A stretch of DNA of 58,560 nt from NCBI GenBank assembly GCA_002721995.1, contig PBMF01000015.1, positions 6,815 through 65,374 on the forward strand. Direction: 5' to 3'. The notes under the pieces were generated by a model. It was not told where the DNA came from. It ran no database searches and saw only the letters and a list, made by a program, of their open reading frames with translations. The stretch's first letter is position 1; every line of letters begins with the position of its first letter. Shown piece by piece: positions 9,326-11,526 of this stretch. Position numbers and translations under genes: made by a program. The DNA is from Chloroflexota bacterium (lineage in GTDB: Bacteria; Chloroflexota; Dehalococcoidia; Lucifugimonadales; UBA3495).

Positions 9326-10603
9326 ATGACCACCAAGACTGTACAGGACCTGCACGCCCTGGGCATGGCCGCCCAGAAAGCCTCCCGGGAACTGGCCCGG
9401 CTTTCCACTGACGACAAGAACCGGGTGCTCCTGAACCTTTCCAACCTGCTCCGAACGGAACAGGCGGAGGTGCTGGCGGCCAACGAGCAGGACTACGCGG
9501 AGGCCAAGGCCGACGGCATGGAAGAGTCCTATCTGGACCGCCTGCTCCTGACCTCGGAACGGCTTAACGGCACCGCCGATGAGGTACAACGGGTGGCCGA
9601 ACTGCCCGATCCCGTGGGCGAGGTCATCGAGACTTCCACCCTGCCCAATGGGCTGATCACCAGCCGCCGCCGGGTGCCACTGGGAGTGGTGGGCAGCATC
9701 TACGAGTCCCGTCCCAATGTTACTGTGGACATCTTTGGCCTGTGCCTGAAATCGGGCAACGCCTGCCTGCTTCGAGGCGGAAAGGAAACCATACGCTCCA
9801 ACACGGCGCTGGTGGCATTGCTGCGCCGGGCCCTGGCCGCAGCCGGGGTGACCGAGGACGCCGTCCAGTATCTGGACAACCCGGACCGGGCGCTGGTGGA
9901 CGCCATGCTGCGCATGGACCAGTTCATCGACCTGCTGGTGCCCCGGGGCGGTGCGGGACTGGTCAGGTTCGTGGCCGAGAACGCCACCATGCCGGCGGTG
10001 ACCGGCGGTGTGGGCGTCTGTCATACCTACGTGGACCGGAACGCCAACCTGGAGATGGCGGCGGAGATAGTCCACAACGCCAAGGTCAGGCGTCCCTCCA
10101 TCTGCAACGCCCTGGACACCCTGCTGGTCCATTCCGAGGTCGCCGCCGAGGGACTGCCCCTCATCGCCAAGGAACTGACGGGCTCGGGAGTGGAACTGCA
10201 CTGCGACAACCGGGCGCTCAGCATCCTGGGACCGGACGCGCCCGGCACTTCTCTGCCGGCCCAAGAGGATGACTGGGGCAAGGAGTTTCTGGCCCTCATC
10301 GCCGCCGTGAAGGTGGTGGACTCCCTGGACGACGCGCTGGAGCACATCGAGACCTACGGCTCCGGCCATTCCGAGGCCATCATCACCGAGGACGAGTCGG
10401 CGGCCACCAGGTTCCTTGACGAGGTGGACGCGGCGGCGGTGTACGTCAACGCCAGCACCCAGTTCACCGACGGCGGCCAGTTCGGCCTGGGGGCCGAGGT
10501 GGGCATCAGCACCCAGAAGTTCCACGCCCGCGGACCCATGGGCCTGAAAGAGCTGACCACATACAAATGGGTCATCGTGGGCAAGGGACAGACCAGGCCC
10601 TAG
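9326..10603 (+). CDS. proA: Gamma-glutamyl phosphate reductase
   Basis: ProA reduces gamma-glutamyl phosphate with NADPH to glutamate semialdehyde, the second step of proline synthesis. The 425-residue protein is a full-length aldehyde-dehydrogenase-fold member. Visible marks are GSIYESRPNVTVDIF, CLLRGGKE, the catalytic cysteine in TGGVGVCHTY near residue 233, RRPSICNALDTLL, and the C-terminal FGLGAEVGISTQKFHARGP. Its ATG lies two bases after the proB stop, indicating translational coupling. The third enzyme, ProC, is not in the window. Confidence 0.97.
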   Translation: MTTKTVQDLHALGMAAQKASRELARLSTDDKNRVLLNLSNLLRTEQAEVLAANEQDYAEAKADGMEESYLDRLLLTSERLNGTADEVQRVAELPDPVGEVIETSTLPNGLITSRRRVPLGVVGSIYESRPNVTVDIFGLCLKSGNACLLRGGKETIRSNTALVALLRRALAAAGVTEDAVQYLDNPDRALVDAMLRMDQFIDLLVPRGGAGLVRFVAENATMPAVTGGVGVCHTYVDRNANLEMAAEIVHNAKVRRPSICNALDTLLVHSEVAAEGLPLIAKELTGSGVELHCDNRALSILGPDAPGTSLPAQEDDWGKEFLALIAAVKVVDSLDDALEHIETYGSGHSEAIITEDESAATRFLDEVDAAAVYVNASTQFTDGGQFGLGAEVGISTQKFHARGPMGLKELTTYKWVIVGKGQTRP

Positions 10604-10651: not shown

Positions 10652-10960
10652 TTGGCTGAATTCAGCTTCCAGCGCGAGGTGCGCACCCCGTCTTCCGAGG
10701 CGTACATGATCATGGAACTGGACCGGCAGGTAGGCCGGGTGGACATCCATTTCACCAATGAGATGGTCCATGTCGCCATCGCCGCCGACGAGAGCCTGAC
10801 GCAGGAGACAATCCAGGAGATCATCGACTCGGTGGACGAGGACCTGGTGGACTCCGTGGGCATCAACCGGGAGAACTTCGTGGTCCACGTCTTTCAGGGC
10901 CGGGAGACCGGCGTTTTCAGCGACGAGAACGAGTTCAGCGAGGATGGCGATAATCACTAG
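10652..10960 (+). CDS. Small acidic protein of unknown function
   Basis: A 102-residue protein with a strongly acidic C-terminus (DENEFSEDGD) and an acidic middle (TIQEIIDSVDEDLVDSVG). I do not recognise a family. It starts at a TTG codon with GGGAGGAAAC seven bases upstream; no in-frame ATG lies near, so TTG is the supported start. It is 48 bases downstream of proA on the same strand and may share that transcript. No signal peptide, membrane segment or cysteine is present. The alternating hydrophobic pattern (RVDIHFTNEMVHVAIA) suggests a small alpha/beta fold. Confidence 0.65.
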   Translation: MAEFSFQREVRTPSSEAYMIMELDRQVGRVDIHFTNEMVHVAIAADESLTQETIQEIIDSVDEDLVDSVGINRENFVVHVFQGRETGVFSDENEFSEDGDNH

Positions 10961-10974
10961 GCACTAGCCCCTAG

Positions 10975-11526
10975 CTAGAGTTGTTCGATCAGCCTGGCCA
11001 CGCTGGGCCGGTCGTGGGGCGCCTCCCCCCGGTGCTCAAAGACCACCGTACCGAACTCCCCCAGGATGAAATCCCCGCCCAACTGCTTCCAGTCGCTGGC
11101 CGCATGGTGGTAGCGCCGTCCCCTGAAGAGGAGTTTCAGGTAGGTCCAGACCGTCCGAGGGGAAAATATCTTAAGCCAGCTGCCCTCCACCAGCCCGTAG
11201 GCCGCGTAAGCCGTCCGTTCGGGGTCTGACAACACCGGAAAGGGCAGCCGTAGCTGCCGGGTCAACTGGAACAGACGTTCCTGGGGCTCAAAGGAGACGG
11301 CCACCACCGTGGCCCCCTTGGTCTGGATATCTCCGTACTGCTGCCGCAACTGCGACAGATGCTCCCTTCAAGGCACTCAAGCGAAATGCCTGAGAAAGAC
11401 CAACAATGTCTTGTTGCCCTTTAAGGACTGGAGGGAACAGGGCTCGCCTTCGGGATTGGGCAGGGTGAAGTCGGGGGCGATGCGTCCGATGAGAGAGAAC
11501 TGGGCGTCCGCTTGGCAGCCACTCAT
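10975..11526 (-). CDS. Peroxiredoxin-like selenoprotein with UxxU motif
   Basis: Read from ATG 11526 the frame is open to 10975 except for two TGA codons, at 11379-11377 (codon 50) and 11370-11368 (codon 53). The residues around them are TLLVFLRHFA-U-VP-U-REHLSQL. In AhpC/TSA-like peroxiredoxins (PRXL2 type) this place is the redox CxxC motif, usually FLRHFGCxxCRE. Sequence on both sides is good family sequence: APDFTLPNPEGEP before, VVAVSFEPQERLFQL and LPFPVLSDPERTAYAAYG after. The simplest reading is a 183-residue protein with selenocysteine at both redox positions. A stem with loop AGTT lies 10-27 bases after the second TGA. The start is uncertain: no ribosome-binding site precedes ATG 11526, and the frame stays open further upstream. 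The alternative is a pseudogene with two nonsense changes, but both would have had to hit exactly the two cysteine codons. Confidence 0.82.
11341..11358 (-). promoter_or_regulatory. Candidate bacterial SECIS stem-loop
   Basis: On the minus strand CTGTCGC (11358-11352) pairs with GCGGCAG (11347-11341) around loop AGTT, with one T-G pair. The loop lies 17-20 bases after the second TGA, within the usual bacterial SECIS distance, and contains G and U. Function is inferred. Confidence 0.45.
11368..11379 (-). other. Two in-frame TGA codons, probable selenocysteines
   Basis: TGA at 11379-11377 and 11370-11368 encode positions 50 and 53 of the peroxiredoxin-like protein, replacing both cysteines of its CxxC motif. 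Confidence 0.8.

Follow-up and report, generated by a model that had tools for sequence, protein, structure and literature searches.

Are two TGA codons that lie three codons apart in one reading frame true stops, or are both of them read as selenocysteine (Sec, U)? We analyzed a 58,560-nucleotide (nt) stretch of a Chloroflexota genome (contig PBMF01000015.1, assembly GCA_002721995.1; hereafter the window), where this question is raised by a peroxiredoxin-like gene on the minus strand. Read from 11526 to 10975 with TGA as U, it gives MSGCQ...LRHFAUVPUREHLSQLR...IEQL, followed by TAG. A previous interpretation made from the letters alone, the sequence-only reading, had placed TGA at codons 50 and 53, and the translation confirms two in-frame TGAs at these codons. 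We consider it very probable that a single hairpin helps both of them to be read as selenocysteine, which would give a UxxU redox enzyme. Like the sequence-only reading, we arrive at a UxxU selenoprotein because the TGAs are conserved, cysteine (Cys) homologues align with them, the hairpin covaries, ratios of nonsynonymous to synonymous substitution rates (dN/dS) are low on both sides, and selA, selB and selD are present.

10975..11526, minus strand: gene for a SelL-related, peroxiredoxin-like, predicted UxxU selenoprotein of 183 amino acids (aa); ATG at 11526, TAG at 10977-10975
11377..11379, minus strand: UGA1, codon 50, predicted Sec and first residue of UxxU, from the translation and the aligned family rows
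11368..11370, minus strand: UGA2, codon 53, predicted Sec and second residue of UxxU, from the translation and the aligned family rows
10975..11349, minus strand: 124-aa fragment open reading frame (ORF) with a TTG start, i.e., the remainder under translation table 11

The genus relatives L025-L032 have an ATG at or close to the position of the window gene's start codon (L numbers denote gene copies, G numbers genomes, and G000 is the genome of the window). Standard annotation leaves just the 124-residue fragment that had been foreseen. Similarly, among 108 listed database homologues 103 begin past codon 53, 89 of these at the equivalent of residue 60; one begins at residue 51, and the motif is covered in four. 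Two named homologue records come from metagenome-assembled genomes (MAGs), one of the SAR202 cluster at 73% identity and one of Chloroflexi at 71%. The host of the window is probably a SAR202-type Chloroflexota. The window gene and its relatives are hence truncated in databases, and a conserved redox enzyme is hidden.

Family assignment and conservation of the motif

The window protein scored 156.2 bits against the NCBIfam profile NF040769, "SelL-related redox protein" (curated cut-off 120). It also matched Pfam PF00578, PF13911 and PF08534 over their cut-offs, AhpC-TSA and AhpC-TSA_2 among them, in line with the fold and family profile of a peroxiredoxin (AhpC/TSA). Among 60 Protein Data Bank (PDB) chains listed, the near-whole-profile unbroken matches were 9us9 and 9usa, a prostamide/prostaglandin F synthase that we take to be PRXL2B, a protein of PRXL2 type. 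Both Cys of the 9us9 CxxC motif align with the UxxU positions; unlike the predicted Sec protein of the window, however, 9us9/9usa is a Cys enzyme, and the match does not point to a prostamide activity of the window protein. AhpE and Bcp/PrxQ-type peroxiredoxins (PDB 4x0x, 4xih, 3hjp, 2cx3) have neither Cys nor Sec at position 50, and the position of codon 53 aligns with a cysteine of 4xih and 2cx3. The label PRXL2-type, proposed from the sequence alone, is fair in view of the AhpC-TSA and 9us9/9usa matches, but the most specific label is SelL-related (NF040769).

Relatives were searched in 147 genomes including that of the window, 50 of them from the same taxonomic family. The 18 motif-bearing genes of this family (L024-L041, window gene included) comprise 15 UxxU forms, two UxxC forms (L033, L039) and one SxxU form (L036); one more same-family copy, L042, is a 3' piece without the motif region. 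Within the genus, UxxU was found in nine of 12 genomes; G009 has a downstream piece only, and in G005 and G008 no such gene was found. In a sample of 400 genomes from the phylum, NF040769 scored over its cut-off in 32, at 33 places. Of these, 29 places outside the own genome were examined and gave 16 UxxC, 11 CxxC and two UxxU motifs, so the homologues with Cys at both sites that had been sought do exist; three further places with an NF040769 match had no TGA.

Across 47 family rows, site 1 (codon 50) is U or C in 46 and Ser in one, and site 2 (codon 53) is U or C in all. With UxxC, UxxU and CxxC forms aligned at these positions across the phylum, the proposal that both TGAs replace the cysteines of a CxxC motif holds. 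Such an interchange of Sec and Cys, here at both positions, is the usual mark of a selenoprotein.

In L036 (G028:C42:16309-16821) the motif reads SLPU, from TCA at the first site and UGA at the second. It resembles the TxxU motif of Sec peroxiredoxins in the table of PMC13188914. The codons directly 5' of UGA1 (11385-11380 in the window and their equivalents in L024-L041) are nearly frozen, i.e., Phe is TTC in 16/16 and Ala is GCT in 15/17, perhaps as UGA context.

A hairpin downstream of both TGA codons

The sequence-only reading had noted a stem with loop AGTT after the second TGA. It is found as a 7-base-pair (bp) hairpin with the properties of a bacterial selenocysteine insertion sequence (SECIS):

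11341..11358, minus strand: predicted bacterial SECIS hairpin CUGUCGC-AGUU-GCGGCAG, 7-bp stem, tetraloop AGUU at 11351-11348

The hairpin starts 9 nt past UGA2, and its loop lies 25 nt past UGA1 and 16 nt past UGA2. The bacterial SECIS model of PMC13188914 has a loop of 3-9 nt, a stem of 4-16 bp, G within the first two positions of the loop, a UGA-to-loop distance of 16-37 nt and a minimum free energy of at most -7.5 kcal/mol. The window hairpin lies within all of these limits for both UGAs, with UGA2 spaced exactly at the lower one. Its folding energy is -9.9 kcal/mol for the stem-loop alone and -11.8 kcal/mol for the stretch after UGA2.

Covariation was analyzed in 36 Sec-type rows, with 11 CxxC rows as the Cys set. 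In the Sec-type rows 90.5% of the cells are paired, and changes on both sides of a pair occur in 41 cells compared with 12.8 in shuffles. The covariation score of 0.526 (shuffled, 0.180) was reached in 0/500 shuffles, and the best slid version of the stem scored 0.212. The CxxC rows are 54.5% paired, like their shuffles. Moreover, the hairpin is almost frozen at the codon level. In 17 same-family genes, a count that leaves out the decayed G003 copy, its codons TCG, CAG and TTG are each kept in 17/17 and CGG in 16/17. Of 26 conserved columns with six-fold degeneracy, only those of the hairpin Ser and the hairpin Leu are codon-invariant. The loop AGUU is present in 17/17 UxxU rows.

Genes with a single UGA share this hairpin core: L033 and L039 have UGA1 only, and L036, with TCA at site 1, has UGA2 only. 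Each codon hence occurs by itself on one hairpin. The Rfam model RF00031 (SECIS_1) gave no match in the own genome, nor in any of 14 control genomes, and this silence is uninformative because the controls were silent as well. In the UxxC genes L090, L094 and L099 another hairpin was seen by eye, with stem UUGGCC/GGCCAA, loop AGGUU and a one-base shift; by eye, this is a second SECIS shape within one family.

We envisage that SelB carrying Sec-tRNA would bind the single hairpin and serve UGA1 first and UGA2 three codons later. In the folded protein, beta-strand 39-44 would be followed by a helix with both Sec at its start. One of the selenolates could attack a peroxide or disulfide and the other Sec resolve it as a diselenide, which a thioredoxin-type reductant would regenerate.

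Weighing the selenocysteine reading

The own genome contains selA (563 bits), selB (343 bits) and selD (372 bits) over cut-off. Of 60 genomes searched for selB, 52 had a match over cut-off, and relatives have selC. The selD gene (G000:C48:12067-12984) itself has one in-frame TGA.

A number of observations weigh against decoding of both TGAs on one hairpin. The folding energy is only weakly better than that of shuffled sequences (z -0.56 for 58 nt, -1.81 for 37 nt) and hence not decisive alone, whereas the conservation of the two TGAs and of the hairpin codons and the covariation across 36 genes are; in the 58-nt fold, a small competing stem forms around UGA2. The 18 same-family rows taken by themselves show little covariation: a single pair is changed on both sides (CG to UA, three genes), and the proposed register, at 0.154, is outscored by a stem slid by +3, at 0.193. 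The pairing of 6/7 positions in one CxxC row, L104, is either accidental or a remnant. In L107, a UxxU row, the upper stem has one mismatch, and the UxxC rows L090, L094, L099 and L100 do not fit the hairpin register. The sole gene with UGA2 alone, L036, comes from a single MAG and may reflect an error of the assembly. The genus relative L032 (G003:C34:158626-159144) carries two TAG and one TAA codon in addition to both TGAs, with the hairpin core still paired; this copy is likely decaying. Of the 18 same-family genomes with a motif-bearing gene, 14 passed the selB cut-off; the misses G010, G011, G025 and G034 are 56-85% complete, and G025 has a short selB piece. Finally, no intact selC was found in the own assembly, which is 88% complete in 50 contigs. 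Of the sel genes expected by the sequence-only reading, selA, selB and selD are thus in place, and selC is represented in this assembly by a 69-nt 3' piece only.

This piece lies near a contig start (C12:127-195) and is identical to a relative's selC. An RF01852 match at C12:106-190 was dropped as an intact selC, as only its 3' 69 nt correspond to selC by comparison with relatives. ARAGORN called no tRNA-Sec among 12 own-genome loci scanned; of 20 selC-like loci examined, 17 were called tRNA-SeC, the own locus and two others not. In the relatives G001:C27, G002:C31, G006:C94 and G029:C308, a selC called intact is accompanied, within some 1-8 kb, by one or two extra same-strand copies of the 3' part of selC; in the own genome 3' pieces only were found, at G000:C12:127-195 and C8:56705-56753. 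In this lineage mobile elements may integrate at selC, and this could in addition interrupt the assemblies at that place.

One could argue that only a single Sec is made, the other UGA being inefficient or decoded as another residue and one hairpin being unable to serve both. The spacing of UGA2, at the lower end of the published range, would fit this, as would the predominance of UxxC outside the same family (16/29 examined places vs two UxxU). However, either UGA is found without the other on this hairpin, 15 of the 18 same-family genes retain UxxU, and an unread UGA2 would lose the C-terminal two thirds of the protein. We therefore regard a single Sec as very unlikely.

Alternatively, both TGAs might be true stops in a pseudogene or truncated gene, with only the 124-aa fragment or nothing made. 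A TTG start is available downstream, and the G003 copy has extra TAA and TAG codons. The sequence-only reading had named decayed flanks in close relatives with the same two TGAs as an argument against itself; they were found in this one of the 15 same-family UxxU genes and not in the other 14. The window gene keeps both TGAs, and so do 13 same-family genes whose frame is otherwise open and whose protein identity is 53-75%. dN/dS is 0.11-0.32 downstream of the motif (window gene versus 11 relatives) and 0.10-0.37 upstream of it (eight comparisons with unsaturated dS); these low values on both sides indicate that both halves are selected as one frame. Moreover, neither the active-site motif nor the fold's first strands would be part of the fragment. 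A pseudogene is hence highly improbable.

Genome-wide reassignment of UGA, e.g., to Trp or Gly, for which only the in-frame TGAs themselves speak, is practically negligible and was rejected, since TGA ends 6/32 large ORFs of the window (mechanical ORFs, at least 250 codons), the TGA positions align with Cys in homologues, and a SECIS-type hairpin and selA/B/D are present.

Evolution, neighbours and known systems

In the protein tree of 47 rows, for which no root was inferred, the 18 same-family genes cluster (support 99/97), and the UxxC gene L033 stands apart from the others (95/86). A single clade of all 17 UxxU rows was rejected (p 8.5e-38). One clade of the 18 same-family genes and the two distant UxxU genes L093 and L107 was not rejected (p 0.10); in the best tree, these two group with three UxxC genes (65/83). 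These values do not establish that the second Sec was gained twice independently. The minimum number of changes is at least three for Sec at site 2 and at least five at site 1. We lean slightly towards the view that a SECIS hairpin which in Chloroflexota already served the first Sec of a UxxC protein came to decode, likely on more than one occasion, a second UGA that a point mutation of the Cys codon had created nine bases downstream. The family would then offer one near-invariant hairpin with UGA1 only, with both UGAs and with UGA2 only, as a natural series.

Two convergent genes lie beyond the 3' end of the selenoprotein gene:

9326..10603, plus strand: proA-type gene, by its sequence family presumably proA; convergent neighbour, syntenic in relatives
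10652..10960, plus strand: 102-aa ORF between proA and the selenoprotein gene, convergent; beside it in 12/18 same-family loci, own included

Flanks of up to 1.5 kb were compared, some ended by contig ends. An operon with the upstream gene, which we take to be of LLM type, was rejected; that gene was not found in the relatives' flanks except for a 28% match in L022. Elsewhere in the own genome, three more Prx-like matches have one in-frame TGA each (G000:C13:114301-114639, C18:51774-52070, C27:9544-9855) and are likely further hidden selenoproteins.

SelL combines a UxxU motif with a thioredoxin-type fold. In a PNAS abstract of 2007, Shchedrina et al. reportedly described already a SECIS inside a bacterial gene, at a spacing suited to both Sec. 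Compared by description only, the window gene is like SelL in its two in-frame UGA codons and UxxU motif. SelL is described as forming a diselenide bond and occurring in fish, invertebrates and marine bacteria (PMC2397514), with two Sec and one SECIS element (PMC3541580). To this arrangement may correspond here one covarying hairpin, predicted to act at 16 and 25 nt, together with single-UGA genes at either site. Unlike SelL as described there, our protein belongs to a Chloroflexota lineage and its diselenide is a prediction.

A 2026 review (PMC13188914) tabulates a Prx-like thiol:disulfide oxidoreductase with UxxC/UxxU and one to two Sec; the window protein shares with this entry the PF00578 family, the UxxC and UxxU forms and the status of a predicted bacterial selenoprotein. 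These table rows give no lineage or SECIS detail, and 'Chloroflexi' is absent from the paper's text. The Global Ocean Sampling (GOS) survey lists the marine bacterial Prx-like 2 family as UxxC with several UxxU sequences (PMC2398784). It defines that family by weak pfam04592 similarity, and we liken it to the window protein by description only. For Chloroflexi, three selenoproteins in three families have been given (PMC1794560). Among the open-licence papers listed by searches on SAR202, Dehalococcoidia and Chloroflexi, none is on this protein by its title.

UxxU proteins are thus fairly called rare, as in the sequence-only reading, but they are not new. UxxU Prx-like selenoproteins are already described (PMC2398784, PMC13188914), and the window gene joins them. 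Double-Sec active sites are few. What is new here is the record of a predicted SECIS hairpin with natural single-UGA forms at each site, and of a second Sec that, as read from the tree, changed state at least three times. Such a natural mutation series on one hairpin is useful for asking in what way SelB can serve two UGA codons and what outweighs the cost of a second Sec.
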